From NCBI GenBank assembly GCA_012729975.1, contig JAAYBW010000259.1, positions 1 to 37,959 on the forward strand: DNA of 37,959 nt, written 5' to 3'. The DNA is from Clostridiales bacterium (GTDB taxonomy: Bacteria; Bacillota; Clostridia; Oscillospirales; Oscillospiraceae). The stretch's first letter is position 1. Each line of letters begins with the position of its first letter. Positions 7,141 to 27,697 of the stretch are shown here, one piece after another. The notes beneath the pieces were generated by a model that saw nothing but the letters and a program-made list of their open reading frames with translations, had not been told where the DNA came from and did no database searches. The position numbers and the translations under genes are program-made.

Positions 7141-9468
7141 ATGAATTTTATATTCTTTGACAGAACCGCCTTTACCGAGAGGCTGGATATAAGCTTTTAC
7201 TTTTATTGTCTTTTACGCCGGCCGGCTCTTATTAAATATCTCCCCGCCCGCCTTTTTATCGAAATTCTGAATATTTTCGGTCTCGTTCGGGAGGAGAAAT
7301 ATTTCGACCGCCGCTGGCGCTTTCTCAGAGGTGTTAATGACCCGCTCGGAAGAGCGGCCGGGTTCTGGAAAAAGCGTCTTCGGAAAGTTTATAACTTTTT
7401 CCCGGAACAGCGAAACCTATGGTTAAGCCGATGGCCCGAGCCTGTGCTGCGCCCTCTCGGCGAGCAGCTGAACACCGTGATTATTGCCCCGTCTTTCGAT
7501 CTTGTCGATGGGAAGTATTCCCCGTATGAAGACCTCAGCGCGCTATACCGGCGCGCTTTAAAATCCTATAAACCGACGTTGGTGCTTGACGGACCTTATT
7601 CGCAGATACGCACGGGCGCCGATACTCTGCGCGCATGGCACGGACGCGTTTTCGAAAACACGAAAAAATGCCGGGTATACCGCTTTGTATTCGGCGTTTA
7701 CACCTTTTTAGCTCTTCTGGGGCTCGGCGTGGGACTCGGTCTGATAAGCATGTATTTCGGCGCTTCAAGATACCTTCTGCAAATGTTTATGACTTATTTT
7801 TCGATACCGCTCATACCCGTCCTTAATATTCTGCCCGTGGCGGCTCTTGTATTTCTGTTGTATTTCATTTTTAACCGGGTCTGGCTGAGCTTCGCGTTTT
7901 CATCCCTTATAACCATGGTTTTTTCACTTATAAACTATTTTAAGCTTGAGATGCGAAACGACCCTCTTCTCGCCGCGGACCTTAAGCTTATCTCGGAAAC
8001 CAACAATATGCTCGGCCGCTATGAAATCCAGTTTACATGGAAGATATATCTGGCCTTCGCTTTATGCATACTCGCGGTTATCGGCGCGGCGATACTGGTC
8101 AGAAGCCGCATCGGTTCCCCCAGAGTCAGGCTTATATCCGTTGTGGTAATAATCTGCCTCGGTGTTTTCGCTTACTCAACGGTATATATAAATCCTTCGG
8201 TTTATAATATGACCGAGAATTACGAACTGGTGTCGCGCTGGTCGGCAACCGGGCAATACGTATCCCGCGGCTTTGTCTACCCGTTTATCAACAGCATCAA
8301 GTCGGCAAAAGTAAAACCGCCCGAGGGCTACGATGAGACCGCGGCCCGAAACGAACTGGCTCGCCGTATTAACGAATCAATACCGGAGAAAGAGCGCATT
8401 TCTTTCATAGTCGTTCAGCTGGAAGCGTTCAACGACTTTTCAAAGTATAAGAGCCTTCTGAGTTTCACAGAGGATATTTATGAACCGTTTCATGAGCTTG
8501 CCGAGAACTCTGTTTCGGGAGAACTGATCACAGACGTGTTCGCGGGCGGCACGGTGGAAACGGAATGGGCTTTCCTAACGGGCAACACGATTAACAGCGA
8601 TTACAGAAGCAACGTAAACTCCTATGTCCGATATCTCGGCGCTCAGGGTTATTACTGCGAAGGGAGCCATCCCTGCTACGGATGGTTTTATAACAGAGTC
8701 AACGTAAACGAATATCTCGGCTTCGACACATTTCATTATTACGAAGACCTTTACTACGGGCTCTCCGGCGGCATCGCGGGCGACGACATTCTTTTCCCCG
8801 AGATAATACGTCTTTATGAAGATCACCGCGCTTCTTCCGACCGTCCGTATTTCAGCTTCTCGGTAACCTATCAAAATCACGGCCCGTATTCGGACGAGTA
8901 CAACTATTACGATAAAGATTACGTTGAGAGCGAAGGTTTTACCGCGGCTGAAATGAATATACTTAACAACTACTTCGGCGGTATAGAAAACACCGTGAAG
9001 AACGTGTGCTCCACCGCCGAATATATAGATTCGAGCGATGACCCGATCGTTTTTTTGGTATTCGGCGATCACAACCCATGGATGGGTTACGGCAACAGCG
9101 TTTATAACGCCATGGGGCTCGATCTGGATTTTGACAAGGAAGAAGGCTTTTTCAATTACTACGGCACACCTTACATCATTCATGCCAACGAAGCCGCCCG
9201 CTCGGTACTCAAAAAACAGTTTGTGGGCGAAGGCCCGGCAATAAGCCCCTGCTTTTTGATGAATCAGCTTTTCTCGGAATGCGGCTGGGGAGGCGACGCT
9301 TATATGAAACTGGCGAGCGAGGTTATGGCACAGACTCCTCTTGTCCATTCCACAAACCGCTATTTACTAAACGGGGAACTGACCTCGGCCCTGCCTGATG
9401 ATCTTTCCCGGCTGATGAACACATTCCGCTGCGCTCAATATTACCGCAGATGGAATTTCAGCGGCTGA
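7141..9468 (+). CDS. LtaS-family lipoteichoic acid synthase with N-terminal degenerate HAD domain
   Basis: 775-aa membrane protein. The C-terminal part is an LtaS/sulfatase-fold domain outside the membrane that should transfer glycerophosphate (or a similar group) from phosphatidylglycerol to a growing teichoic acid. Its metal site and nucleophile are visible: E428 in VVQLEAF, T471 in AGGTVETEW, H580 in QNHGPY, and D643-H644 in GDHNP. Five membrane helices lie at about 182-206, 221-243, 250-270, 300-320 and 331-352. Residues 1-160 are extra; they resemble an HAD-IB phosphatase (FFDRT at 5-9, FYFYCLLRRP, WPEPVL near 99), but the catalytic residues are mostly replaced. ATG 7141 follows GGGG at 7130 or so. 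A dedicated promoter lies upstream. Substrate preference within LtaS-like enzymes is not certain. Confidence 0.9.
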   Translation: MNFIFFDRTAFTERLDISFYFYCLLRRPALIKYLPARLFIEILNIFGLVREEKYFDRRWRFLRGVNDPLGRAAGFWKKRLRKVYNFFPEQRNLWLSRWPEPVLRPLGEQLNTVIIAPSFDLVDGKYSPYEDLSALYRRALKSYKPTLVLDGPYSQIRTGADTLRAWHGRVFENTKKCRVYRFVFGVYTFLALLGLGVGLGLISMYFGASRYLLQMFMTYFSIPLIPVLNILPVAALVFLLYFIFNRVWLSFAFSSLITMVFSLINYFKLEMRNDPLLAADLKLISETNNMLGRYEIQFTWKIYLAFALCILAVIGAAILVRSRIGSPRVRLISVVVIICLGVFAYSTVYINPSVYNMTENYELVSRWSATGQYVSRGFVYPFINSIKSAKVKPPEGYDETAARNELARRINESIPEKERISFIVVQLEAFNDFSKYKSLLSFTEDIYEPFHELAENSVSGELITDVFAGGTVETEWAFLTGNTINSDYRSNVNSYVRYLGAQGYYCEGSHPCYGWFYNRVNVNEYLGFDTFHYYEDLYYGLSGGIAGDDILFPEIIRLYEDHRASSDRPYFSFSVTYQNHGPYSDEYNYYDKDYVESEGFTAAEMNILNNYFGGIENTVKNVCSTAEYIDSSDDPIVFLVFGDHNPWMGYGNSVYNAMGLDLDFDKEEGFFNYYGTPYIIHANEAARSVLKKQFVGEGPAISPCFLMNQLFSECGWGGDAYMKLASEVMAQTPLVHSTNRYLLNGELTSALPDDLSRLMNTFRCAQYYRRWNFSG

Positions 9469-9528: not shown

Positions 9529-12492
9529 TTGCTTACACTTAAAGGAATCACCAAGGAATACCCTGTGGGTAACGGAACGGTCAGGGCTCTTCGCGGCATC
9601 GACCTTATATTCAGAAAAAGCGAGTTCGTATCCGTGCTGGGCCCCTCGGGCTGCGGAAAGACCACGCTGCTGAACATAATCGGCGGTCTTGACCAGTATA
9701 CACAGGGCGATCTTATAGTAAACGGAGTCTCCACAAGCCGGTACCGCGACCCCGACTGGGATGCTTACCGGAACAACTCGGTGGGCTTCGTATTTCAAAA
9801 CTATAATCTTATACCCCATCAGACGGTACTTGTTAACGTCGAGCTGGCGCTGACCCTGTCCGGAGTGTCTAAAGCGGAGCGCAGGCGGAAAGCCGCCGCC
9901 GCTCTTGAAAGGGTCGGTCTGGGCGATCAGCTTAAAAAAAATCCGAATCAGCTTTCGGGAGGACAGATGCAGCGCGTTGCCATAGCGCGCGCCCTTGTCA
10001 ACGACCCTGAAATTCTGCTCGCCGACGAACCTACGGGCGCACTTGACACCGAAACCAGCACACAGGTGCTTGATATTCTCAAAGAGATCTCGGCAGATCG
10101 GCTCGTTATTATGGTCACGCACAATTCTGAGCTTGCCGAACACTATTCAACCCGCATCGTCCGGCTTCTCGACGGGCTTGTTACGGGCGATACCGATCCG
10201 TTCGACGGCTCCGAAGCGCCGAACGAACCTTCCGTTGCCGGCGGTTTAAACGCCCCTAAAACCGCGAAAAAGAAGTCCATGTCTTTTTACACGGCGCTGA
10301 CGTTATCGCTCAATAACCTGATGACCAAAAAGACACGCACCTTTATGACCGCCTTCGCGGGCAGTATAGGCATCATCGGCATCGCTCTTATCCTCTCGCT
10401 GTCAAACGGTATTCAAAAGTATATAGACCGCATTCAGAGCGACACTCTTTCCGCCTACCCCATCACCATATCCGCTGAAACAGTGGACATGGCCGGCATT
10501 CTCTCATCCATGCGGGAAGATCAGGACGGCGAGATCTCGCATGACCGCGATGCCGTTTATTCCGGCTCTTACATGGCCGATATGTTCGACACAATGCTCT
10601 CCATAGACACCAAAACCAACAATCTTCAGGCGTTTTTGGAGTATGTGCAGAGCGAAGAGAGCGGTATGAGCGAATATATCGGCAGCATCCAGTACAAATA
10701 TGGTACAACCTTAAATATCTACGCTTCCGATACGTCAAACGGCATTGTTAAGGTCAATCCCAGCCCGGTTATCGACAATCTTATGTCAACCTTTTACAAC
10801 ACAGACACGCTGTCCGCCAGCCCGGTGTCCTCAATAATGGGGATTTCGTCCGGATTCGACATATGGACGGAGCTCATAGACGATAAGGAACTGCTCGAGT
10901 CGCAGTTTGACCTGATTGCCGGCCGGTGGCCTTCGTCTTACGACGAGGTCGTGCTGATAGTGGATGAAAACAACGAGATCAGCGATATATTTCTCTATTC
11001 GCTGGGTCTTATGGATCAAAGCGAAGTTCAGGAAATGCTGCAGGCCGCGCTCGCCGGCAAAAAAATCGAGCCGAAAACCGAATCCTGGACTTACGAGGAG
11101 CTGCTCGGTACGACCTATAAGCTGGTTTTACCTACAGATTACTATGTTTATCACTCCGAGACCGGCACCTGGACGGATAACAGCATAAACGCCGACTACA
11201 TGACCTATCTTATTGACAGCGCCGGGCAGCTGAGCGTTGTGGGTATAATCCGCCCCGGCGAGAACGCGGTCGCGACTGCCGTAACCGGTGCCGTCGGCTA
11301 TACGGGCGATCTTGTAAGGCATGTTGTCGAGACCATAAACGAACGCAAGATAGTCAAAGAGCAGCAAAACGATAAAGCCACCGACGTCTTTACCGGACTT
11401 CCCTTTGCGGACTCGTCTTCGACAGTTCTGACAGACTCCGAAAAAGCCGCGGAATTTTCAGACTTCGCCAAAACTCTCACAGTCACCGAAAAAGCTGCTA
11501 TATTTGCCCGTATCGGCTCGGTACCCACGCAGAAGGAGATAAACGATAAGGTCGCAGAGGTTATGAACGGTATGACCCGCGAAAAGGCCGAGCAGCTTTT
11601 TATAAAGGGCTATGCCGCCCGTATGGGGGTGGACGAAGAATCGGCGGCCTCATACATTGCTTCCATGACTGATGAAAACCTTTTTCGCTTTATCGAGACG
11701 GGCCTGAGCGAGGATATACGCTCTTCATATGCCGAGTCCTTTGAGCAGGCCGTGAGCTCTATGACATCCGAGGAACTGGCCGCGGCGTTCGACGCACGGG
11801 TAGCGGCCTCAGACGAGGCAAGTCTTGCCGCGCTCTACGATGAAAATATGTCGGCCGGCGTTTCAGAGTCGACTCTTGAGGAAAACCTCGCTCTTCTGGG
11901 CGTTTCCGACCTCGATAAGCCGGCATCGGTGAACATATACGCCAGAACCTTCAGGGACAAGGACTCCATCACCGAGAAAATAGCGGAATACAACGAAAAA
12001 ATGTCGGCACAGGGCAGAGAGGATTTAGTCATCAGGTATACAGACTATGTGGGCCTTCTGATTTCTTCCATAACAACCATTATCAATATAATTTCGTATG
12101 TCCTCATCGCTTTTGTTTCCATATCGCTGGTCGTATCGTCGATCATGATCGGGGTTATAACATATATCAGCGTATTGGAACGCACTAAAGAAATCGGTAT
12201 TTTACGCTCCATCGGAGCTTCCAAGAGGGATATCTCCCGCGTTTTCAACGCCGAGACAATGATAATCGGTTTCACTTCCGGAGCCATCGGCATTATTCTG
12301 GCTGCTCTGCTGTGCATACCCGCCAGTGCGATAGTTAAGAACCTTACCGGGGTTTCGGGCATAGCCCAGCTTCCGCTGTCCGGAGCGCTCGCCCTTGTTT
12401 TAATCAGTATCGTCCTTACTTTGATCTCCGGTCTTATACCATCCCGAATCGCGGCGCGAAAGGACCCGGTAGTGGCCCTTCGCACGGAATAG
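9529..12492 (+). CDS. Fused ABC ATPase-permease, MacB/FtsX type
   Basis: A 987-residue single-chain half-transporter. The ATPase domain (1-225) has Walker A GPSGCGKTT at 38-46, signature LSGGQ at 142-146 and Walker B ILLADEP near 164-170, typical of the LolD/MacB group. After a linker comes a first membrane helix (about residues 275-300), an extracytoplasmic region of about 530 residues, and three C-terminal helices in the FtsX-like arrangement, with KEIGILRSIGASKRDI between them. Such proteins dimerise and act as mechanotransmitters for export of peptides, antibiotics or lipoproteins rather than as classical importers. The start is TTG, chosen because the conserved MLTLKGITKEY begins there; AAAGGA at 9511-9516 is a little distant. 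No separate accessory protein or two-component regulator is next to it, so the substrate is unknown. Confidence 0.9.
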   Translation: MLTLKGITKEYPVGNGTVRALRGIDLIFRKSEFVSVLGPSGCGKTTLLNIIGGLDQYTQGDLIVNGVSTSRYRDPDWDAYRNNSVGFVFQNYNLIPHQTVLVNVELALTLSGVSKAERRRKAAAALERVGLGDQLKKNPNQLSGGQMQRVAIARALVNDPEILLADEPTGALDTETSTQVLDILKEISADRLVIMVTHNSELAEHYSTRIVRLLDGLVTGDTDPFDGSEAPNEPSVAGGLNAPKTAKKKSMSFYTALTLSLNNLMTKKTRTFMTAFAGSIGIIGIALILSLSNGIQKYIDRIQSDTLSAYPITISAETVDMAGILSSMREDQDGEISHDRDAVYSGSYMADMFDTMLSIDTKTNNLQAFLEYVQSEESGMSEYIGSIQYKYGTTLNIYASDTSNGIVKVNPSPVIDNLMSTFYNTDTLSASPVSSIMGISSGFDIWTELIDDKELLESQFDLIAGRWPSSYDEVVLIVDENNEISDIFLYSLGLMDQSEVQEMLQAALAGKKIEPKTESWTYEELLGTTYKLVLPTDYYVYHSETGTWTDNSINADYMTYLIDSAGQLSVVGIIRPGENAVATAVTGAVGYTGDLVRHVVETINERKIVKEQQNDKATDVFTGLPFADSSSTVLTDSEKAAEFSDFAKTLTVTEKAAIFARIGSVPTQKEINDKVAEVMNGMTREKAEQLFIKGYAARMGVDEESAASYIASMTDENLFRFIETGLSEDIRSSYAESFEQAVSSMTSEELAAAFDARVAASDEASLAALYDENMSAGVSESTLEENLALLGVSDLDKPASVNIYARTFRDKDSITEKIAEYNEKMSAQGREDLVIRYTDYVGLLISSITTIINIISYVLIAFVSISLVVSSIMIGVITYISVLERTKEIGILRSIGASKRDISRVFNAETMIIGFTSGAIGIILAALLCIPASAIVKNLTGVSGIAQLPLSGALALVLISIVLTLISGLIPSRIAARKDPVVALRTE

Positions 12493-12514
12493 CGCTGTCG
12501 ATTTATCAAAAAAA

Positions 12515-12548
12515 ACGGCGGCCGGGAGCATTGTTTCCCGGCCGCCGT
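12515..12548. terminator. GC-rich hairpin between the ABC gene and his operon
   Basis: A 13-bp perfect stem (ACGGCGGCCGGGA with its complement) closes an 8-nt loop 22 bp after the ABC transporter stop codon. The A-run just before it gives a U-tract only when read on the minus strand; the plus strand lacks one. It may stop read-through from the transporter into his, antisense transcription, or both. Confidence 0.65.
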
Positions 12549-12641
12549 CGAATCAAACGGCGCTATTTCTTCGGGTGTCGGACTTATGCCAAATACTCGG
12601 AATATGGGACGCTTTTCGGTTTTTTCGGTATCCGAATATCC

Positions 12642-12670
12642 TTGCATAAAAATTCATTGGCTGATATACT
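12642..12670 (+). promoter_or_regulatory. Promoter of the his operon
   Basis: TTGCAT at 12642-12647 and TATACT at 12665-12670 are spaced by exactly 17 bp. Transcription should start near 12677, leaving a leader of only about 16 nt before hisZ. That leaves no room for a T-box or leader-peptide attenuator. Confidence 0.75.
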
Positions 12671-12692
12671 GTCCGAAAAAGAGGTGATGCGC

Positions 12693-13877
12693 GTGAATTT
12701 CGGAAAAATCAATACTCCCGACGGCACAAGAGACAGCCTGTTCTCCGAGTGCACGGACAGACGCCGGATCCGCGGCGCGCTCATGAGCCTCTTCGCCTCT
12801 CGTTCGTACTGCGAAGTAATGACTCCCGGTTTTGAATTCTATGACCTTTTCGTCAGGGCGGAGGATCCGATTCCTCAGGAATCGATGTTTAAACTGGTGG
12901 ACAGAAGCGGTCGTCTGCTTGTCATGCGGCCCGACTGCACCGCTCCGATAGCCCGCGTCGTAGCAACGCACCTTAAAGACGCAGTTTATCCGGTTCGACT
13001 TTGCTATGATCAGGCCGTATTTCGTTCCGAAGCCGAGCACAGGGGCGCAACCTGTGAAATTGCCCAGTGCGGAATAGAGCTTATCGGAGCTGACGGGCTC
13101 AGGGGTGATATTGAGGCGGTTGCCATGGCTGCAGACGCTCTGGCGGCGGCGGAAGCCCCGGATTTTTATATCGAGCTTGGCCATGTTGATTATTTCGGAG
13201 GTCTCGCGGATGAGCTTAATCTCGGTCGGGAGCGCACCGAGGAGCTTCGCCACTGCATAGAATCAAAAAACTTCGCGCTCCTCGACGGGCTGCTGAAAGA
13301 TTACTCCGGTCCCGCGGCCCGGGCGCTTCGGCGCCTGCCCTATCTTTTCGGAGGCGAGGAAACGCTCGACGAAGCCGAGGCTCTCGCCGTAGGCGAAAGA
13401 GCGCACTTCGCGGTAAAGCGCCTTAGGGATATATATAACGAGATCTCCCCGGGAAAGCGCGGCGGACGCCTTCGTTTTGACCTGGGTCTTGTTCAGCATC
13501 TGGGATATTACAGCGGCCTGGTATTCCGCGGCTATTGCACCGGAGCGGGTTCCGCGGTGCTCGCAGGCGGCAGATATGACGGTCTGCTGTCCGATTTCGG
13601 CTGCGAGCTTCTCTCCATCGGTTTCGCGGTATACGCCGACACACTCGCGGCCTGCCTTCCCTCCAGGGCTCTGCCCGGCACCGATACTCTGATATATTAC
13701 GACGACGGTTGTCTTGACAGCGCCGTAGAACTCTTATCGACTCTCCCCCCGGGAACGGCCGAGCTTTCAACGTTTACGGAGCTCGGGCCGACGCTTGCTT
13801 TAGCCCGCCGGAAAGCCGCTGACCGCGTGCTCCATGTATCAAAAGGCGGCATTTCGGAGGTGTATGTCAATGAGTGA
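12693..13877 (+). CDS. hisZ: ATP phosphoribosyltransferase regulatory subunit HisZ
   Basis: Histidyl-tRNA synthetase paralogue (394 aa) that forms the octameric ATP phosphoribosyltransferase with the short HisG and mediates histidine feedback. Class II synthetase motifs are visible near the start (NTPDGTRDSL, FFEFYDLF-like region, MRPDCTAPIAR) and later a glycine-rich GGRYDGL, but no anticodon-binding domain follows, as expected for HisZ. The upstream frame is open to 12531 but that start would lie in the intergenic hairpin. I prefer GTG 12693, since GAGGTG at 12681-12686 is well placed; ATG 12687 is possible and adds two residues. It is the first gene of the operon and overlaps hisG by 8 bp. 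Confidence 0.9.
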   Translation: MNFGKINTPDGTRDSLFSECTDRRRIRGALMSLFASRSYCEVMTPGFEFYDLFVRAEDPIPQESMFKLVDRSGRLLVMRPDCTAPIARVVATHLKDAVYPVRLCYDQAVFRSEAEHRGATCEIAQCGIELIGADGLRGDIEAVAMAADALAAAEAPDFYIELGHVDYFGGLADELNLGRERTEELRHCIESKNFALLDGLLKDYSGPAARALRRLPYLFGGEETLDEAEALAVGERAHFAVKRLRDIYNEISPGKRGGRLRFDLGLVQHLGYYSGLVFRGYCTGAGSAVLAGGRYDGLLSDFGCELLSIGFAVYADTLAACLPSRALPGTDTLIYYDDGCLDSAVELLSTLPPGTAELSTFTELGPTLALARRKAADRVLHVSKGGISEVYVNE

Positions 13878-14502
13878 CAATCTGAAAATCGCCATAACCA
13901 AGGGACGCCTTCTGGAAGAGTCGTCCTCACTGTTTGAAAAACTCGGCGCCGACTGCTCTGCGGTAAGAAAGCCCGGCAGAAAACTCGTCGTGCCCGTTTC
14001 GGAACTCGGTTTATCCGTAGTGCTCGCTAAAGCCCCGGATGTCATTACTTATGTTGAACACGGCGTATGCGCGATGGGAATCGTCGGCAAGGATACCATT
14101 ATGGAGAGCGGCGGTTCTTTTTACGAGGTGCTCGATCTCGGGTTCGGACGCTGCCGTTTCGCGCTGGCCGCCCCTGCCGGGACGGATTTCTTAAACGGCT
14201 GGAAGACACGCACAATAGCCTCAAAATATCCGAAGGTCGCAATGGAATATTTCCGCTCCCGCGGCATGGACGTAAACGTAATAAAAATCGAGGGTTCGGT
14301 TGAGCTGGCCCCCGTACTGGGACTGGCGGACGGAATTATCGACATCGTGGAAACCGGCAGCACGCTGCGTGCGAACGGTTTGGAGATCATCGACACCGTC
14401 GCGGATATATCAGCCCGACTTATCGTTAACACGGCGGCTATGAAGCTTTATAAAAACGAGCTTCTGGGTTTTGTCGAAAAATGCAGGGAGGCCCTTACAT
14501 GA
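13870..14502 (+). CDS. hisG: ATP phosphoribosyltransferase catalytic subunit, short form
   Basis: First committed enzyme of histidine synthesis, joining ATP and PRPP to phosphoribosyl-ATP. The 210-aa length is that of the short form without the C-terminal regulatory domain, which needs HisZ, encoded just upstream. Motifs include IAITKGRLLEES at the start, the GIVGKDTIME region and the PRPP-binding DIVETGSTLRANGL. GGAGG at 13856-13860 favours ATG 13870 over ATG 13864, which would add two residues. The gene overlaps hisZ by 8 bp and hisD by 4 bp. Confidence 0.95.
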   Translation: MSDNLKIAITKGRLLEESSSLFEKLGADCSAVRKPGRKLVVPVSELGLSVVLAKAPDVITYVEHGVCAMGIVGKDTIMESGGSFYEVLDLGFGRCRFALAAPAGTDFLNGWKTRTIASKYPKVAMEYFRSRGMDVNVIKIEGSVELAPVLGLADGIIDIVETGSTLRANGLEIIDTVADISARLIVNTAAMKLYKNELLGFVEKCREALT

Positions 14503-15791
14503 TCACGGTTACAAAAGCATCACGAGACAACGCCTCCTCGGTAATATCGGCGCTCCGCGCGCGCAGCGCCGAAAAAAACGCCGAGATATCCGCGGCGGCC
14601 GCCGATATAATGAATAATGTCCGCAAAAACGGCTGGCAGGCAGTCGTTGAATATTCCCTGAGATTTGACCGCGCGGAACCTTTCGAGCTTACCCGCACGG
14701 AGCTGGAAGCCGCCGCCGCGAGCTGTCCGGCGGAGCTATTGAGCGCCATACGGCGGGCGGCGGAGAATATACGGGATTATCAAAGCCGGCTGCTTCCGAA
14801 AAGCGCCGAGTGGCAGGTGCCCGGCGGCATACTCGGTCAGACGGTACGCGGCTTACACCGGGTCGGGGTGTATGTGCCCGGCGGAGCTGCGGCATACCCG
14901 TCCACGGTACTTATGAACGTTATCCCCGCTAAGGTCGCGGGCGTCGGCGAGGTAATAGTCGTGACTCCGCCTACGAAAAATTTAAATATCGCCGTGATGG
15001 CAGCGGCTTACGTTGCCGGCGCGGACAGGCTTATCGCCCTCGGCGGCGCGCAGGCCGTCGCAGCCCTTACCTACGGCGCGGGCTTCGTGCCGCGCGTCGA
15101 TAAACTGGTCGGACCCGGAAACGCTTATGTCGCGGCAGCCAAGAGGCTTGCCTTCGGCGAGGTGGACATAGATATGGTCGCAGGCCCTTCGGAGGTGCTC
15201 ATTATCGCGGACGATACCGCGGATCCGGTATACATTGCCGCAGACATGCTCAGTCAGGCCGAGCATGACGCTCTTGCGGCCTCTGTTTTGGTAACAACCT
15301 CTAAGGCACTATCCGATAAGGTAATAGAGCAGCTTAAAGCGCAAAGCGAACCGCTTGAAAGAAGAGAAATAATAAGGCAGTCTCTGGCCGAGCAGGGCGC
15401 TATTATAATATGCGGCACTCCCGAAGACGCGGCCCGCATTGCCGACGAGGCCGCGCCGGAGCACTGTGAGATAATGACGGAAAACCCGCGCGCTCTGCTC
15501 CCTATGATAACCAACGCCGGAGCCATATTCCTCGGTCCGCACTCGCCCGAGCCGCTCGGAGACTATATGGCCGGCCCGTCACACGTGCTTCCGACCTCGG
15601 GCACGGCCAGGTTCTTCTCACCTCTTTCCGCGGAAAGCTTCATTAAAAAAACCAGCATAATAGAATATACCCGCGAGGGTATTCTCGCCGTCGCGGACGA
15701 CATTATCCGCCTTGCGCGCGCAGAAGGTCTAACGGCTCACGCCGCGTCCGTTGCCGCGAGAATGAACACGGATACCGCGCGAGAAAAATGA
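14499..15791 (+). CDS. hisD: Histidinol dehydrogenase
   Basis: Zinc- and NAD-dependent enzyme for the last two oxidations, histidinol to histidine, cytoplasmic, 430 aa. Family landmarks are HRVGVYVPGGAAAYPS, DKLVGPGNAYVAAAK, DMVAGPSEVLI, QAEHD and the catalytic AAPEHCE. ATG 14499 overlaps the hisG stop as ATGA and has GGGAGG at 14486-14491; an in-frame ATG at 14481 would add six residues without a better site. In related operons hisC usually follows, but here hisB does. Confidence 0.96.
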   Translation: MITVTKASRDNASSVISALRARSAEKNAEISAAAADIMNNVRKNGWQAVVEYSLRFDRAEPFELTRTELEAAAASCPAELLSAIRRAAENIRDYQSRLLPKSAEWQVPGGILGQTVRGLHRVGVYVPGGAAAYPSTVLMNVIPAKVAGVGEVIVVTPPTKNLNIAVMAAAYVAGADRLIALGGAQAVAALTYGAGFVPRVDKLVGPGNAYVAAAKRLAFGEVDIDMVAGPSEVLIIADDTADPVYIAADMLSQAEHDALAASVLVTTSKALSDKVIEQLKAQSEPLERREIIRQSLAEQGAIIICGTPEDAARIADEAAPEHCEIMTENPRALLPMITNAGAIFLGPHSPEPLGDYMAGPSHVLPTSGTARFFSPLSAESFIKKTSIIEYTREGILAVADDIIRLARAEGLTAHAASVAARMNTDTAREK

Positions 15792-15830
15792 CTGCCGCGG
15801 CAATAATCCGAAGAAAGAACGGAGATTCAT

Positions 15831-16409
15831 ATGAGAACTGCCGATATTGAACGGATTACCAAAGAGACGCGCATTTCACTGTCTTTAAACCTGGACGGCG
15901 GAGATGTGTCAGTCGAAACGGGACTTGGCTTTTTTGATCATATGCTCACCGCTTTGTTTTTTTACGCGGGCTTCGGGGCGAGGCTGACCGCCTCCGGCGA
16001 TCTTGACGTCGATGCCCACCACACGGTCGAGGACGTCGGCATAGTCATCGGGCGGGCTCTGGCGGAAGCTCTGGGCGACAGGAAGGGAATCCGCCGCTAC
16101 TGGAGCTGCCAAATCCCTATGGACGAAGCGCTTTGCTCCGCAGCTTTGGATGTGGGCGGCAGGGCTTTTCTGCGTTATGACGCGCCTATGCCTCAGGAAT
16201 TTGTCGGCGGCTATGATGTATGCCTTACACCCGAATTCATGCGCGCTTTTGCCGTAAACGCGGCCGTTACGCTGCATATGAAAGCCGAATACGGCGATAA
16301 CTCGCACCATGTGACCGAAGCGCTTTTTAAAGCGCTGGGAACCGCGCTCAGATACTGCTGCGAAATCAGCGGATCTTCCGTGGCTTCAACGAAGGGTGTC
16401 CTCTCATGA
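15831..16409 (+). CDS. hisB: Imidazoleglycerol-phosphate dehydratase
   Basis: Manganese enzyme that dehydrates imidazole glycerol phosphate to imidazole acetol phosphate; 192 aa, the monofunctional form without the histidinol-phosphatase domain. Metal-binding histidine motifs are clear: FFDHML near the start, DAHHTVEDVGI and the C-terminal GDNSHHVTEALFKALG. It starts 39 bp after hisD with ACGGAGA as ribosome binding site, and its end overlaps hisA by 4 bp. No histidinol phosphatase gene is visible in the operon. Confidence 0.96.
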   Translation: MRTADIERITKETRISLSLNLDGGDVSVETGLGFFDHMLTALFFYAGFGARLTASGDLDVDAHHTVEDVGIVIGRALAEALGDRKGIRRYWSCQIPMDEALCSAALDVGGRAFLRYDAPMPQEFVGGYDVCLTPEFMRAFAVNAAVTLHMKAEYGDNSHHVTEALFKALGTALRYCCEISGSSVASTKGVLS

Positions 16410-17122
16410 ACATACTCCCGGCCATCGATCTCAAAGACAACAGCGTAGTGCGCCTGTACAGAGGCGATTACAATACAGTACACAGTGTGGCCGAAAGCGC
16501 CGCGGACACAGCAAGGCTCTTTTCCGATTGCGGCGCGCAGATGATACACGTTGTGGATCTTGACGGGGCGCGCGACGGCGTTCGCAAGAACGCCGGAACG
16601 GTTGCCGAAATCTGCGCCTGCTCGAAGGCCGCGGTTGAACTCGGCGGAGGTATACGCTGTATGCGGGACGTTGAGGCTGTCTTCGCTCTGGGTGTAAAAA
16701 GAGCCGTTATCGGTTCGGCCGCGGTCTCCGATCCGGAATTTGTCCGGATAGCGGCCGAAAAATACGGTGATCGCATAGCGGTAGGCGTAGACGCTAAGGG
16801 CGGCCTTGTACGTACGCACGGCTGGACCGAGGGCACCGGCAGGAATGCCGTAGAGTTCGCGGTCTCAATGGAAAACCTCGGAGTGCGTACAATTATCTTC
16901 ACCGATATCGATACGGACGGGATGCTCTCGGGGCCTCCCTTTGATACGCTCAAACGCCTGCGCGCGGAGCTCAAGTGCTCTCTTACCGCAAGCGGCGGAG
17001 TCTCCTCGCTTGATGATCTGCTCAGGCTCCGGGAGCTCGGTATTGACAGCGCCATCGTCGGCAAGGCCTGGTATTCCGGCGCCGTTGATCTTCGCGAGGC
17101 TATATATCAGTGTAAAGACTGA
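16406..17122 (+). CDS. hisA: Phosphoribosylformimino-AICAR-P isomerase HisA
   Basis: (beta-alpha)8-barrel isomerase opening the ribose of ProFAR to PRFAR; 238 aa. Catalytic aspartates lie in PAIDL near the start and VGVDAKGG in the middle; phosphate-binding motifs are VELGGGIR and TASGGVSS. The sequence is that of HisA and not of HisF, whose N-terminal motif differs. Its ATGA start overlaps the hisB stop. hisH, normally just before it, and hisF, normally just after it, are not present. Confidence 0.95.
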   Translation: MNILPAIDLKDNSVVRLYRGDYNTVHSVAESAADTARLFSDCGAQMIHVVDLDGARDGVRKNAGTVAEICACSKAAVELGGGIRCMRDVEAVFALGVKRAVIGSAAVSDPEFVRIAAEKYGDRIAVGVDAKGGLVRTHGWTEGTGRNAVEFAVSMENLGVRTIIFTDIDTDGMLSGPPFDTLKRLRAELKCSLTASGGVSSLDDLLRLRELGIDSAIVGKAWYSGAVDLREAIYQCKD

Positions 17123-17150
17123 TGCAGGCAGTTTAGGAGGCTTATACGGT

Positions 17151-17471
17151 ATGGTCGATCTGTCGCGCTTTTTTCTTAAATCCGGTCTTGTGCCGGTCAT
17201 TATACAAGACTCAGCTACCCGCGAGGTCCTGATGCTCGGTTATACAAACGAAGAGGCCTTAAACCTCACGCTCAATACGAAAACCGCATGGTTTTACAGC
17301 CGCAGCAGAAAAAGGCTCTGGAACAAGGGCGAGACCTCGGGCAATTTTCTGCATACGGAGAAAATACTGTATGACTGCGACGAGGACACTTTCCTCTTTC
17401 TTTGCAGGCCGGACGGCCCCACATGCCACACAGGCGAAAAAAGTTGTTTTTTCAGGGAATTGGAGGTTTAA
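17151..17471 (+). CDS. hisI: Phosphoribosyl-AMP cyclohydrolase
   Basis: Third enzyme of the pathway, hydrolysing phosphoribosyl-AMP to ProFAR, 106 aa, a stand-alone cyclohydrolase. Zinc and magnesium ligand motifs are recognisable: WFYSRSRKRLWNKGETSG, the acidic YDCDEDT, and CHTGEKSCF at the end. TAGGAGG at 17134-17140 points to ATG 17151; a longer open frame upstream lies within hisA and is not needed. hisE follows with an 8-bp gap, so the two activities fused in many bacteria are separate here. Confidence 0.95.
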   Translation: MVDLSRFFLKSGLVPVIIQDSATREVLMLGYTNEEALNLTLNTKTAWFYSRSRKRLWNKGETSGNFLHTEKILYDCDEDTFLFLCRPDGPTCHTGEKSCFFRELEV

Positions 17472-17479
17472 GCGAAGCT

Positions 17480-17806
17480 ATGCGGGACGAGTTCAGATTG
17501 CAGTACGAGGCCGCCATGGAGCGCCGCAGTCACCCTGCAGAGGGCTCCTATACGCGCTATCTTTTCGATCAGGGCACCGATAAAATACTTAAAAAGATCG
17601 GCGAGGAATGCGCCGAAACCATAATCGCCGCCAAAGGCGGCGACCACAGCGGAACCATATATGAAATCGCCGATCTTCTTTACCATATCGCCGTGCTGAT
17701 GGTTAACGAGGGCATTACGATAGACGAAGTGTACGGCGAGCTTAATGAGCGGAGCAAAAAAAGCGGGAATCTCAAGGAAATGAAGACAGTCGACAAAAAC
17801 ACATAG
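17480..17806 (+). CDS. hisE: Phosphoribosyl-ATP pyrophosphatase
   Basis: Second step enzyme, removing pyrophosphate from phosphoribosyl-ATP; 108 aa, all-alpha MazG-like fold. The metal site is in GEECAETIIAAK and EIADLLYHIAVLM. GGAGG at 17462-17466 sits 13 bp before ATG 17480, overlapping the end of hisI, which suggests reinitiation. It is the last gene of the operon, followed by a bidirectional terminator. Confidence 0.94.
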   Translation: MRDEFRLQYEAAMERRSHPAEGSYTRYLFDQGTDKILKKIGEECAETIIAAKGGDHSGTIYEIADLLYHIAVLMVNEGITIDEVYGELNERSKKSGNLKEMKTVDKNT

Positions 17807-20454: not shown

Positions 20455-23400
20455 TTAAAACAGTGACATCTGCGCGCTTTCCGGTAGGTTTCCGAAAGCT
20501 CCCGCCTTTTTCAGCTGCTCTATATTGGCGCGCGATACCTTCGGACAGGCCTGCGCGAATTCATCTATCGATGTGAACTCCCGGTCTGTGTGGGCCGCGA
20601 TATCACGCGCGGCGGCTTCCCCGAGACCCGACACCGCTATAAACGGCGGCAGCAGCTTGTCTGAGTCGATAAGAAACCTGACCGGATCCGATCTGTAGAT
20701 ATCTATCCCGGCAAAGGAGAAGCCGCGCATATAAAACTCATAGCAAACCTCAAGAACGACGATTTCGTCCTTTTCGTTCTGTTTAAGATCCTGACGCGAC
20801 GAGAGCTCGGTGATCCTCGCTTTTATTTTATCCGCACCGCAGGTCATGGTATCGAGATCGAAAACCTTTGCCCGCACCGAAAAATAAGCGCTGTAAAACT
20901 CTATGGGCCTGTGCACCTTGAACCACGCTATTCGCATGGCCATTATTACATAGGCAGCGGCATGCGCCTTGGGAAAAAGGTACTGTATCTTCTTGCAGGA
21001 ATCGATATACCACTGGGGCACTCCCAGCCCGCGCATCTCGTCTTCTATGCCCTCGGGCCATGCGTTCGGATCGCCCTTGGGCAGCTTGCCCTTTCTTACC
21101 GCCTCCGTAAACTTAAAGGCTCGCTTTTCTTCCATTCCCTTGGATATAAGGTAGAGCATTATATCCTCACGGCAGCCCGCGCATTCCTCAACGGTGGCTA
21201 TGCCGCTGAGCACCAGATCCTTTATATTCCCGGCCCAGACATCGGTGCCGTGGGAAAAACCCGACAGCTTTATAAGGGTGGAAAAACTCTTCGGTTTAGT
21301 GTCGACCAGCAGCTGCCGCGTAAAGTTGGTGCCGAACTCGGGTACGGCAATGGTTCCCGTCTTTCCGATAATCGGGTCGTCCTCGGGCAGACCGAGTGCG
21401 GCCGGAGAATTAAAAAGGCTCATTGTCTCGGGGTCGTCCAGCGGTATCGACAGGGGGCCAATACCCGTGAGATCTTCAAGCATCTTTATCATCGTAGGAT
21501 CATCATGTCCGAGTATATCCAGCTTGAGCAGATTGCTTTCCATGCTGTGGTACTCAAAATGAGTGGTGATAATATCGCTGTCGGTGTCATCCGCCGGATG
21601 CTGCACGGGGCAAAAATCGTATATCTCCTTATCCTGAGGTATGACGACCAGACCCCCGGGGTGCTGTCCCGTGGTGCGTTTTACGCCTGTCAGTCCCGCG
21701 GCAAGCCTGCTCTCCTCGACTTTCGAGGCCGTCTTGCCGCGTTCTTCAAGGTATTTTTTCACATATCCGTAAGCCGTCTTCTCCGCTATCGTTCCGATCG
21801 TACCGGCTCTGAAAACATGCTCGGCACCGAAAAGTTCTATCGTATCCTTATGCGCCTGCGCCTGATATTCACCGGAAAAGTTCAGGTCTATGTCCGGAAC
21901 CTTATCTCCCCCGAACCCTAAAAACGTTTCAAACGGTATGGAAAAGCCGTCCTTAACGTATCTGCTGCCGCATACGGGGCAATCGGCGTCGGGCATATCC
22001 ACACCGCAGCCGTATCCGACTCCGGCTTCAAAATCGGCGTGCTTGCAGACAGGACACCTGTAATGCGCGTTCAGGCCGTTGACTTCGGTTATTCCGGCGA
22101 AATAAGCGACGACCGACGAGCCCACGCTTCCCCGGCTGCCGACCAGATAACCCGCGGCGGTGGATTTGGAAACCAGCTTTTGAGCACTCATATAAATTAC
22201 ATCGTACGCGCAGCCGATTATATCTTTCAGTTCCGCATCAACACGGCGCAGCACCTGCTCGGGCGGCCGGTCGCCATACATCTCGCGCATCTTTTCCCTT
22301 ACAAGAAACTGAAGCTCTTCGGCCGAATTCTCTATCTTGGGTTTAAAAAGCCCCTTAGGCAGCGGCGCGACCTCGCCGCACATGTCCGCGATGCCGTTTG
22401 TCGACTCGATTACCACGCGTCTGGCCGTATCCTCTCCGAGATAAGAAAACTCCTCGAGCATCTCCTGTGTGGTTTTAAAGTACAGCGGAAGCGGCTTGTC
22501 CGCGTCCGGGTATTTGTTTGACAGGAGTATCCGTCTGAAAATCTCATGCTCCGGCTCCAGAAAATGAACGTCGCCCGTCGCGCACACCGGCTTATTTAAA
22601 TCATTTCCCAGACGTACGATCCTGCGGTTAAACTCCCGCAGATCCTCTTCACAGGAGGCTCTTCCGTCGTCTATAAGGAACCGGTTGTTGCAAAGCGGCT
22701 GAATTTCAAGAAAATCATAAAACTCCGCCAGCCTGCGAAGCTCCCGTTCACTGCGCCCGGATACGAGCGCGTGGAATATCTCTCCGTTCTCGCAGGCACT
22801 TCCCAGAAGCAGCCCTTCCCTGTTTTCCAATATAAGGCTTTTAGGCATAACCGGGTTTTTACGGAAATGCTTAAGATAGGACAGCGAAATGAGCTTGTAC
22901 AGATTGCGCATACCGGCCTGACTGTATACGAGTATCGTAAGATGGCGCGGCTGCCCGCGTCTTTGAACGCCGCTGCGCAGTTTTGATAATTCCGCGTCAA
23001 TGATGTTCAGACTTGTCACCCCGGCCTCCCTGAGCCGGTCAAAAAGTACCAGCGCTGTGCGCCCGGTTGTCTCGGCGTCATCCGAAGCCCTGTGGTGATT
23101 GAATTCGGGCAGGCCTAGGAAGGCCGCGACCGAATCGAGGCTGTGTTTTTTTAGCTCCGATAAAAGCGCGCGGGACATAGTCAGCGTGTCGACTGAGACA
23201 TTGTCAAACGGCAGACCGGACTGCCCGCATACGGCCGAGATGAATGCGGTATCAAAATCTGCGTTGTGCGCGACAAGCGGCGCGCCTGCGGCAAAGCGCA
23301 GAAAATCCCGCACGGCCTCGCTCTGTGTCGGTGCCGCCTTAACGTCTTCATCCGTTATGCCTGTCAGTCGTGTTATTTCCGGCGGTATCTTCCTTCCGGG

Positions 23401-24402
23401 ATTGACAAAGGTCTGAAAGCGCTCGCACGGAAGACCCCCGGAAAAACGCACCGCGCCTATCTCGGTGATCGCGTCAGTCCCCGGCCTGAGGCCCGTGGTC
23501 TCAAGGTCAAAGGCGACGAAATCGGTATCCAGTCCGGCGTCGGAAGGCGCGGATACGGCGAGCCTGTCATCCACATCGTTTACGTAATAGGCTTCGATAC
23601 CGTAGATAATTTTGATGCCGTATTTTTTACCGGCAGCACACGCGGCCGGATAAGCCTGCGCAGCTCCGTGATCTGTTATGGCCACAGCGCGATGGCCCCA
23701 GCGGGCCGCGGTTTGCACAACCGCGTCGATGTCCGTAAGCGCGTCCAGGGCGGAAAACCGCGTATGTAGATGAAGCTCGACGCGCTTATCGCCCTCAGGC
23801 AAGTCGGAACGGATCTTTTTTTCCTTGATCTCTATATTGACCGGTTCCATGGTTATATCCGCGTACCAACGGCTGTAAGACACCGGCCCCTGTACCCGAA
23901 GGCACAGCCCGTCGCGTATTTCGTCGAGAGCCTCATCGCCTTTGTCCAGATATTTCGTTACCCGAATGCTGCCCGTTTCATCGTTTATATTGAAATCCAA
24001 AACCCTGCCGCCTCCGCGGAGCTCACGTCTTTCCGTTCCGAATACCTCGCCCCGGACCGTTACGCGGCCCGATTCCGGGCCGAGTGTTCCGATTTCGGTA
24101 TCCTTCCCTTTAATGGGTTTGCCGTACAGCAAACGTTCAATGTTTTTTCTATATTCCTGTTTTAAGGCCGACGCCGCTTTTATCTCCACGGAACGCAGTC
24201 CGAATTCGGCCGCTATTTCGGCTTCCATCATAGAAACGGTCACCGGCGGCGGCGGAGCCGGATATTCTATGTGAAGCTTCATCGCCAGATTCCCTTTGTC
24301 AACGTGAACAGACAGCACATACGAGTCACGCAGCATTCCGAACAGAGCTTCGTCTCCCCTGCAGCAGTCAAACATATCATAAAACGCGGTGCGTGCTCCC
24401 AT
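20455..24402 (-). CDS. polC: DNA polymerase III alpha subunit, PolC type
   Basis: Replicative polymerase with built-in proofreading, 1315 aa. In order: a short N-terminal domain, an OB domain (VRGEVFG to about residue 200), a PHP domain beginning VELHLHTRFSALD and split by the 3'-5' exonuclease (AFDLETTGL, LVAHNADFD), a palm with the catalytic PDIDLNFSG, and a four-cysteine zinc site (CPVCKH and CPVCGS). The C terminus ends in QMSLF, a beta-clamp binding motif. Bacillus subtilis PolC is about 1437 aa; the difference lies mostly in the N-terminal domain, which here is about 100 residues shorter. The start directly follows the ispG stop, and GGAGG lies 11 bp upstream. No clear U-tract terminator follows the gene. 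Confidence 0.97.
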   Translation of the reverse strand: MGARTAFYDMFDCCRGDEALFGMLRDSYVLSVHVDKGNLAMKLHIEYPAPPPPVTVSMMEAEIAAEFGLRSVEIKAASALKQEYRKNIERLLYGKPIKGKDTEIGTLGPESGRVTVRGEVFGTERRELRGGGRVLDFNINDETGSIRVTKYLDKGDEALDEIRDGLCLRVQGPVSYSRWYADITMEPVNIEIKEKKIRSDLPEGDKRVELHLHTRFSALDALTDIDAVVQTAARWGHRAVAITDHGAAQAYPAACAAGKKYGIKIIYGIEAYYVNDVDDRLAVSAPSDAGLDTDFVAFDLETTGLRPGTDAITEIGAVRFSGGLPCERFQTFVNPGRKIPPEITRLTGITDEDVKAAPTQSEAVRDFLRFAAGAPLVAHNADFDTAFISAVCGQSGLPFDNVSVDTLTMSRALLSELKKHSLDSVAAFLGLPEFNHHRASDDAETTGRTALVLFDRLREAGVTSLNIIDAELSKLRSGVQRRGQPRHLTILVYSQAGMRNLYKLISLSYLKHFRKNPVMPKSLILENREGLLLGSACENGEIFHALVSGRSERELRRLAEFYDFLEIQPLCNNRFLIDDGRASCEEDLREFNRRIVRLGNDLNKPVCATGDVHFLEPEHEIFRRILLSNKYPDADKPLPLYFKTTQEMLEEFSYLGEDTARRVVIESTNGIADMCGEVAPLPKGLFKPKIENSAEELQFLVREKMREMYGDRPPEQVLRRVDAELKDIIGCAYDVIYMSAQKLVSKSTAAGYLVGSRGSVGSSVVAYFAGITEVNGLNAHYRCPVCKHADFEAGVGYGCGVDMPDADCPVCGSRYVKDGFSIPFETFLGFGGDKVPDIDLNFSGEYQAQAHKDTIELFGAEHVFRAGTIGTIAEKTAYGYVKKYLEERGKTASKVEESRLAAGLTGVKRTTGQHPGGLVVIPQDKEIYDFCPVQHPADDTDSDIITTHFEYHSMESNLLKLDILGHDDPTMIKMLEDLTGIGPLSIPLDDPETMSLFNSPAALGLPEDDPIIGKTGTIAVPEFGTNFTRQLLVDTKPKSFSTLIKLSGFSHGTDVWAGNIKDLVLSGIATVEECAGCREDIMLYLISKGMEEKRAFKFTEAVRKGKLPKGDPNAWPEGIEDEMRGLGVPQWYIDSCKKIQYLFPKAHAAAYVIMAMRIAWFKVHRPIEFYSAYFSVRAKVFDLDTMTCGADKIKARITELSSRQDLKQNEKDEIVVLEVCYEFYMRGFSFAGIDIYRSDPVRFLIDSDKLLPPFIAVSGLGEAAARDIAAHTDREFTSIDEFAQACPKVSRANIEQLKKAGAFGNLPESAQMSLF

Positions 24403-25449
24403 TTAGCAGTCATCCTCCAGTACCATTTTGCACAGCGCGGCGGAAAGCTCACCGAACGGCAGCTTTGCCACCGTCCGGCCGTGCCTGAAAAGTATGCCGT
24501 AGTCCTTGCCTCCGGCTATGCCGTAGTCCGCGTCTGCGGCCTCCCCCGGACCGTTCACAGGACAGCCCATTACAGCGACCTTAACAGGGCGTCGGCAGCC
24601 CTCAAGACCCTGTTTGACATCTCTGAGCAGAGAAAAGAGGTCTATCTGCGTACGGCCGCAGGTGGGGCAGGATATAATTTCCACAGTGTCTTTGCGCAGC
24701 CCGAGAACACGCAGTAAAGCGACTCCCGCCGCCGCCTCCTCCTCGGGCTCCTCGGTGAGCGAGAACCTTATGGTGTCTCCGATTTTATCAAGCAGCAGCG
24801 AACCTATCCCCGCCGCCGATTTTATAACGGCGTCTCTTCCGGCACCCGCTTCGGTTACCCCGATATGAAGCGGGTAGTCTGTCTCCCCGGCCGCGATTCG
24901 GTTCGCTTCCACTGTCGTGCAAACGCTCGAGGCCTTAAGAGAGATGCATATGTCCGACATACCGAAACGCTCGAGCATTTTTGCCTGCGTCACGGCCGAC
25001 TCTACCATAGCGCGGGCTGTTATGCCGCCGTATTTAGCCAGAAGGCTCTTTTCCAGGCTTCCGCCGTTTATACCTATGCGTATGGGTATACCGTGCCGTT
25101 TACATGCTTCGGCCACAGTCTTCACGTTATCCTCGCCCCCGATGTTGCCCGGGTTTATGCGTATCTTGTCCGCTCCGGCCTCCGCGGCCAGAACGGCAAG
25201 CCTGTAATCGAAGTGTATGTCCGCGACAATCGGAATACCCGTATGCTGCTTTAGCAGTCCGATATTGGCCGCCGCTTGCTTTGTCGGCACAGCAACGCGC
25301 ACGATATCGCATCCCGCGGCCTCCAGACGCTTAATCTGCGCAAGCGTAGCCCCGAAATCCTCGGTTTTGGTATTCGTCATTGACTGAACAGAAACAGGCG
25401 CGCCGCCTCCGACAGCGACGCCGCCAACCTTTATCTGCCGTGTTTTCAT
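24403..25449 (-). CDS. ispG: 4-hydroxy-3-methylbut-2-enyl diphosphate synthase
   Basis: Iron-sulfur enzyme of the MEP isoprenoid pathway, reducing MEcPP to HMBPP; 348 aa. The [4Fe-4S] ligands are seen as C261 and C264 in CPTCGR, C296 in GCPVNGPGE, and E303. The N-terminal TIM barrel opens with TRQIKVGGVAVGGGAPV and VQSMTNTKTED. The enzyme is oxygen-sensitive and needs flavodoxin or ferredoxin. It sits between rseP (14-bp gap) and polC (no gap), with the other MEP gene dxr two genes upstream. Confidence 0.97.
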   Translation of the reverse strand: MKTRQIKVGGVAVGGGAPVSVQSMTNTKTEDFGATLAQIKRLEAAGCDIVRVAVPTKQAAANIGLLKQHTGIPIVADIHFDYRLAVLAAEAGADKIRINPGNIGGEDNVKTVAEACKRHGIPIRIGINGGSLEKSLLAKYGGITARAMVESAVTQAKMLERFGMSDICISLKASSVCTTVEANRIAAGETDYPLHIGVTEAGAGRDAVIKSAAGIGSLLLDKIGDTIRFSLTEEPEEEAAAGVALLRVLGLRKDTVEIISCPTCGRTQIDLFSLLRDVKQGLEGCRRPVKVAVMGCPVNGPGEAADADYGIAGGKDYGILFRHGRTVAKLPFGELSAALCKMVLEDDC

Positions 25450-25463
25450 ATTTTTTTCCCTGC

Positions 25464-26513
25464 TTATATGAGCTTTATTATGTCGTTTAACATCACGAAG
25501 GCCATCAATCCGAGCAGAAGGACGTATCCCGCCGCATGCACATAGCCCTCTATTTTCGGGTTGACCTTACGACGGAACACCTTTTCGATAACCAGGGTCA
25601 CCAGCATGAGGAATATGCGCCCTCCGTCCAGGGCAGGTATCGGCAGCAGGTTCATGACCGCCAGATTAACGGCTATGAACGCGCACATATACGCCACATT
25701 CCTGAGACCGTTTTGAAAGCTTCCCGACTCGCTCCCGACCTGATTGATCATCGCGACGACGCCGACCGGTCCCGACAGGTCCTTTACCCCGGCTCCTCCG
25801 GTAAACAGATCGGTCAGTCCTATTCTCACCAATTTTACGAAGTAAGCGGAATTATACCATGCCTGTTTTAGGGTCTCGAAAAAATCGGCCTTTACGGTAT
25901 TAAAATACAGCCCGTATTTTGTTTGGACGCCGTTTTCGGTTTCATATTCGCGAAGACGGAGCGGGAAATCATTCAGCCTGATTTTTTCCCCGTCTCTTCT
26001 GATGACAAGATCGGGTGTCCCGTCGCTTCTCATAAGGTACATCGAAACCTCGGTTATGATACCGACGCGCTGACCGTCGATTGTCAAAATGCGGTCCCCG
26101 ACCATCAGCCCGTTTTCACCCTCTGCCGGGAATCCGTCCATAAAACCGGACAAAACCGGCTCGGAGAAATAGCCGGAGCCCGAAAATAAAATAACCGCGA
26201 CCAGGAACCCGGCAAGGAAGTTCATAAAAGAACCGGCCAGAAGAACAATAAGACGTCTCCAGACGCTCTTTTCCGTAAATGCGTCCGGATGGGGAGAGTC
26301 GCCGTCTTCTCCTTCCATTGCGCAAAAACCGCCTATAGGAAAAGCGCGCAGCGAGTATACTGTCTCGCCCCTTGTGCGGGATATTATTTTCGGCCCCATG
26401 CCGATGGCGAATTCATTTACTCGGATCCCCGCGGCCTTGGCGGCGGCGAAATGCCCGAGCTCATGTAAAAATATCAGTATCGCGAAAGCGACTATCGCAA
26501 TTACAATATACAT
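25464..26513 (-). CDS. rseP: RIP site-2 zinc metalloprotease RseP/RasP
   Basis: Membrane-embedded M50 protease that cuts within membrane helices of anti-sigma factors and of left-over signal peptides, 349 aa. H17-E18-x-x-H21 in FLHELGHF and the distal PALDGG motif form the zinc site. One PDZ domain (around residues 115-200; MVGDRILTIDG) lies between the first and later helices. The gene overlaps the end of dxr by 13 bp and is followed by ispG, an order widespread in Clostridia. Confidence 0.95.
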   Translation of the reverse strand: MYIVIAIVAFAILIFLHELGHFAAAKAAGIRVNEFAIGMGPKIISRTRGETVYSLRAFPIGGFCAMEGEDGDSPHPDAFTEKSVWRRLIVLLAGSFMNFLAGFLVAVILFSGSGYFSEPVLSGFMDGFPAEGENGLMVGDRILTIDGQRVGIITEVSMYLMRSDGTPDLVIRRDGEKIRLNDFPLRLREYETENGVQTKYGLYFNTVKADFFETLKQAWYNSAYFVKLVRIGLTDLFTGGAGVKDLSGPVGVVAMINQVGSESGSFQNGLRNVAYMCAFIAVNLAVMNLLPIPALDGGRIFLMLVTLVIEKVFRRKVNPKIEGYVHAAGYVLLLGLMAFVMLNDIIKLI

Positions 26514-27667: not shown

Positions 27668-27697
27668 TGAAAAATCCTTTCAAGGAGCGCCGGTCCT

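Follow-up and report, generated by a model that had tools for sequence, protein, structure and literature searches.

The fused gene considered here occupies positions 7141–9468 on the plus strand of the window, by which we mean the whole stretch of 37,959 nucleotides that was analysed, and encodes a protein of 775 aa from an ATG start. Three parts can be distinguished in the protein: a pseudo-HAD-IB domain (residues 1–180; 7141..7680, plus strand), recognized from homology, profiles, predicted fold and a table of catalytic residues; a transmembrane part with about five hydrophobic segments (residues 181–410; 7681..8370, plus strand), recognized from hydropathy, secondary structure and alignment; and a predicted extracytoplasmic phosphoglycerol transferase domain of the sulfatase fold (residues 411–775; 8371..9465, plus strand). 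In the model of the HAD domain the final helix (residues 174–183) runs towards the first transmembrane segment. Because the N-terminal domain precedes about five transmembrane segments it is expected, by the known topology of LtaS, to face the cytosol; the cytoplasmic location proposed in an earlier, sequence-only reading of this DNA is probable, the domain also being strongly positive. Prediction of the full-length structure from four sequences reached a pLDDT of 43, a low confidence at which the placement of the domain relative to the membrane is beyond the reach of the model. Downstream of the fused gene is an ABC-transporter ORF (9529–12492), followed by a hisZ-hisG-hisD-hisB-hisA-hisI-hisE cluster (12339..17803, plus strand). 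No hisF gene was seen between the hisA and hisI genes of the window, although another of the genomes (G002) has one at that place.

The N-terminal domain is genuinely of the HAD-IB type. Since residues 1–180 alone gave no HAD match in searches against Pfam, NCBIfam and PDB sequences, the assignment rests on relatives, profiles and fold. Searching whole genomes revealed, in the genome of the window itself, a stand-alone protein of 190 aa (G000:C111) that matches the window domain with an E value of 1.2e-8, and similar stand-alone proteins are also present in relatives; these are HAD-IB hydrolases (PF12710, TIGR01490) in which every catalytic residue is intact. Profile–profile comparison (hhalign) of 18 fused with nine intact domains scored 99.2% (E 2e-19), the window sequence taken singly scored 98.6%, and a profile of intact HAD-IB proteins recovered the window domain with an E value of 2e-16. 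AlphaFold2, run on an alignment of four sequences, gave a best model with a pLDDT of 90.9 and a pTM of 0.84, the other four of the five models lying at 54–74, and the top structural neighbours of the best model over residues 1–184 are HAD-IB proteins, namely 3fvv (Z 14.7, spanning 178 residues), 4eze (Z 12.6) and the SerB-like 3n28 (Z 11.3), in keeping with a Rossmann-like core and a helical cap between motifs I and II. The sequence-only reading had called this domain HAD-IB and had proposed structure prediction with a fold search as a check, and the call is borne out by the relative in the same genome, the profiles and the predicted structure alike. Compared with the hydrolases of TIGR01490/PF12710 (the stand-alone members of the family and 3fvv), the window domain is similar in its fold and length, in the layout of the cap and in having motif I at the N-terminus, but has lost four of the six catalytic positions, all six of which are intact in those proteins, is strongly positive, and is joined to a membrane enzyme. 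A PgpC-type (phosphatidylglycerophosphatase) origin was also considered and produced only weak matches (best 5e-7). Five of the stand-alone HAD-IB matches (L082, L084, L085, L086 and L094) contain one stop codon in the matched frame, which may be a genuine internal stop or just mark where the gene ends.

Alignment of the 18 fused domains with 21 intact relatives shows the extent of the catalytic loss. The nucleophilic aspartate, present in all 21 intact proteins, is found in none of the fused domains, where F, I, V or M takes its place (F5 in the window); the motif III lysine and both motif IV aspartates are likewise present in 21/21 intact and 0/18 fused sequences, with a deletion of about six residues at motif IV. 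Two positions are retained, and may be structural: the residue at nucleophile+2, which is D in every intact protein and D or E in every fused one (D7 in the window), and that of motif II, which is S in all 21 and S or T in all 18 (S96 in the window). Judged from these residues, each of the 18 fused proteins of the family carries a catalytically dead domain, and three fused proteins that belong to two further families of the order also lack the nucleophile. The sequence-only reading had located F5, D7, T9, S96, D150 and S154 correctly and had rightly noted that the nucleophile and the motif III lysine are gone, but its register at motif IV does not hold. Motif IV of the intact proteins reads YSDSxxD, and both the alignment and hhalign map its catalytic aspartates to Q155 and to a deleted position in the window domain, so that the loss of phosphatase chemistry is fuller than had been stated; D150 and S154 were never catalytic positions. 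D150 is invariant in the fused proteins but aligns with a non-catalytic aspartate of the intact relatives, and T9 is retained in only nine of the 18 fused domains.

In the window protein Pfam sees only the sulfatase domain (PF00884, residues 423–695, E 4.7e-16), a match that confirms the proposed fusion to an enzyme of the LtaS/MdoB superfamily; as in the LtaS/MdoB/GacH proteins, the sulfatase domain follows a transmembrane domain and carries a catalytic Thr and Glu, Asp and His as metal ligands. Residues E428, T471, H510, R519, H580, D643 and H644 are all present, E428, T471, D643 and H644 being taken as the equivalents of Glu-263, Thr-307, Asp-481 and His-482 of Listeria LtaS (PMC4192460), and the synthase catalytic residues are kept in 12 of 17 complete homologues, the window protein included. 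Among the solved relatives GacH ranks first (9.5e-12); after it come the Listeria LTA primase (2.5e-8), Listeria LtaS (3.7e-6) and Staphylococcus aureus LtaS (2e-5). Listeria LtaS has a second glycerol-phosphate site, required for polymerisation, which comprises Ser-486, Asn-488 and His-489, five to eight residues past Asp-481 (PMC4192460); the window protein has GDHNPWMGYG there and, on reading the sequence by eye, this second site is not apparent. As GacH is the closest solved relative and the second site of LtaS is not apparent, the description 'LtaS-type' proves too specific, although membership of the LtaS/MdoB superfamily stands, and 'phosphoglycerol transferase of the LtaS/GacH superfamily' would be a safer name. 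The GacH ectodomain (5wcx, 6dgm) has the GGT and GDH motif regions in common with the window protein, but is otherwise distant in sequence, and the structures compared are ectodomains without a HAD domain. LtaS and LtaP (2w5q, 4uoo, 4uop; PMC4192460) likewise combine five transmembrane segments with a sulfatase-fold ectodomain bearing catalytic Thr, Glu, Asp and His; they are more distant than GacH, and the cytosolic HAD domain is an extra in the window protein.

Among 400 genomes of the family that were searched, 18 fused proteins were found, distributed over genera g1, g3, g7, g8, g12, g81 and g88, and most relatives in the family carry the same synthase without the HAD domain; the three further fused proteins, from outside the family, were noted above. 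A contig search returned no relatives with the full window protein as query, and three named fused relatives, all from Clostridiales metagenome assemblies, with an alignment of closer sequences as query. The pseudo-HAD domains, including the three from other families, fall into a single clade of the HAD tree (support 100/99), a tree whose long branches drew a warning from the program. In the tree of synthase domains the fused members of the family cluster, with one apparent loss (G184, with no remnant of a HAD domain detected next to its unfused gene), and the members from other families are placed elsewhere. Either a single early fusion followed by losses or transfer of the domain is possible, the genomes compared being incomplete metagenome assemblies.

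The fused domains differ from their intact relatives in charge, with a net charge of +7 to +21 (mean 12.6) against -6 to +8 (mean 1; p 1e-7); that of the window domain is about +15 over residues 1–186. In close pairs where it could be measured, dN/dS of the pseudo-HAD domain is 0.04–0.10, and 14 positions, including W59, W76, W94 and P99, are invariant across the 18 sequences, values which show the domain to be under purifying selection. This constraint is decoupled from the synthase residues. Five homologues (L027, L028, L029, L023 and L025), three of them from g88 and the others from genomes G006 and G197, have lost synthase catalytic residues: H510, H580 and H644 are replaced in the g88 proteins, and most of the catalytic residues in those of G006 and G197. 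The two losses sit in separate parts of the tree, and the proteins concerned would be double pseudoenzymes that arose in two separate lineages. The HAD domain is nonetheless their best-conserved part, with 91% identity against 62% for the ectodomain between G006 and G197 (p 5e-13), and 91–94% against 77–85% in pairs from g88 (p 2e-6 to 0.0015; 93% against 77% at p 2e-6), p values that assume independent sites, ignore sequence relatedness and are a rough guide only. In close pairs whose synthase is intact, by comparison, conservation of the HAD domain is equal to or below that of the ectodomain. Part of the excess could stem from fast, relaxed evolution of the ectodomain rather than from any particular function of the domain. 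The G006 and G197 genomes, which are 88–91% complete, yielded no further gene of the sulfatase family.

The histidine genes of the window are part of a wider pattern. In ten of 18 genomes a his gene directly adjoins the fused gene, and in the window it is one gene away; none was found in the neighbourhoods of 20 unfused relatives. The linkage occurs in four genera and in two arrangements, with the fused gene upstream of hisZ in g1, g3 (one of two) and g88, and downstream of hisE in g7, where three of four junctions inspected (L031, L033 and L025) show a 4-base overlap, GTGA, of the hisE stop and the start of the fused gene; the fourth (L023) could not be read for overlap. It is absent from g8, g81, g12, G130 and the two other families. 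A histidinol-phosphatase origin of the domain was considered on account of this linkage. Intact HAD-IB proteins match histidinol-phosphatase models weakly (best 2.4e-12), but the intact relative from the same genome (L019) scores 24 bits against the NF052360/NF052359 models, for which the cut-off is 280, and the window protein gave no match to either. This origin was not adopted because the intact HAD-IB proteins fall far below the family cut-offs and lie away from his genes (none within 1.5 kb flanks), and because a PHP-type histidinol phosphatase candidate exists in most genomes.

Fusions of the same HAD-IB subfamily to another membrane partner occur in other families of the class. In L126, L127 and L128 an intact HAD-IB domain lies N-terminal to a GtrA/DPMS transmembrane domain; like the window domain it is thereby attached to a membrane protein with a link to the synthesis of envelope glycans, but it keeps motif I as DFDET, is detectable by Pfam, and has only a small GtrA domain as its membrane part. 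HAD phosphatase domains have also been described as fusions to enzymes producing the lipid-linked pentose donors of envelope glycans, where they take phosphate off ribose-5-phosphate groups, and GtrA has been proposed to be a flippase for lipid-linked sugars (PMC11127046). These HAD domains, on gPRT or UbiA-type PPPRS, are again N-terminal on envelope-glycan enzymes that use lipid-linked donors, but they are described as phosphatases with conserved active-site loops (PMC11127046), whereas the window HAD is to all appearances dead and its partner is a phosphoglycerol transferase. On the strength of the GtrA fusions and of the described fusions with lipid-linked donor enzymes, we think that the ancestor of the pseudo-HAD domain may have acted on an envelope-related phosphate ester. 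Tying the subfamily to envelope glycan metabolism in this way yields substrate guesses that can be tested. A search of the accessible literature for a HAD domain on LtaS, or for an LtaS pseudoenzyme, found no such case, and pseudoenzyme domains joined to envelope-polymer enzymes have been little described.

Our working hypothesis, to which we give an even chance of being correct, is that the pseudo-HAD domain is a membrane-apposed, non-catalytic, cationic binding or docking module that does not depend solely on the synthase activity of its own chain. A HAD-IB phosphatase would have been fused N-terminally to a phosphoglycerol transferase with five transmembrane segments, a member of the LtaS/GacH/MdoB superfamily, and would then have lost all phosphatase chemistry. 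At the inner face of the membrane the domain may now bind without turnover, its target being either a partner protein or a headgroup that is phosphorylated or lipid-linked, through an old active-site shell that still holds the motif II Ser/Thr and the nucleophile+2 Asp/Glu; it is the charge and these retained residues that point to binding. Survival of the domain after loss of the synthase active site suggests a role in binding something, not in cutting it, and with two lineages in which the domain has outlasted that activity its job would extend beyond the synthase of its own chain. The universal retention of the same two positions might instead signal an enzyme with a rearranged active site, which we regard as extremely improbable given that the nucleophile, the motif III lysine and the motif IV aspartates are missing from every homologue. 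A decaying fused domain without function would account for the loss of catalytic residues, for the low identity between genera (26–51%) and for the absence of the domain from G184, which is nested in the clade; the dN/dS values led us to reject this reading, and the invariant positions, shared across three families, also make neutral decay very unlikely.

A regulatory role within the same chain, close to the sensing role suggested by the sequence-only reading, is a less likely possibility: the pseudo-HAD domain could sense or present a lipid substrate, for instance phosphatidylglycerol or a glycolipid acceptor, and so gate the attached phosphoglycerol transferase. Preservation of the catalytic residues in most partner enzymes, the position of the cationic domain next to the membrane, and the links of HAD-IB relatives to envelope glycan enzymes (PMC11127046) are all consistent with such gating. 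A purely in-cis role is challenged by the two lineages that have lost the synthase active site, since it is in g88, G006 and G197 that the domain is under the strongest constraint, and in the latter two with no other sulfatase-family gene found. The linkage to his genes invites the further idea that the ligand of the domain is a phosphoribosyl or histidinol-phosphate-like compound, and that the domain connects the histidine pathway to the envelope. The contrast with the unfused relatives, the weak histidinol-phosphatase matches and the ribose-5-phosphate chemistry of the described HAD domains speak for this idea, which we nevertheless consider quite unlikely, as the linkage is missing from several genera and from the other families, no his genes lie close to the intact HAD-IB proteins, a PHP-type candidate is present in most genomes, and the linked loci come from related sequences and are not independent observations. 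In a combined form, unlikely in our view, the protein would be a membrane-bound pseudo-phosphatase receptor whose HAD domain signals to the synthesis of envelope polymers on sensing either such a metabolite, made by the neighbouring his genes, or a pentose phosphate linked to a lipid; in g88 and in part of g7 the whole protein would then be a two-headed pseudoenzyme retained solely for sensing or scaffolding. For a binding or docking module, the two lineages that lost synthase residues and kept the dead phosphatase domain are natural experiments, in which the function of the domain can be studied apart from that of the synthase.

Two minor observations concern the surroundings of the gene. The genome from which the window derives also encodes a second, unfused phosphoglycerol transferase of the sulfatase family (G000:C275:34229–35008, a frame of 665 aa), which lies on a distant branch of the tree. 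Downstream in the window, on its minus strand, positions 20458–27679 hold four genes that read like polC, ispG, rseP and dxr, names given by sequence reading, and in G130 relatives of these four genes are found directly upstream of the fused gene (L060).
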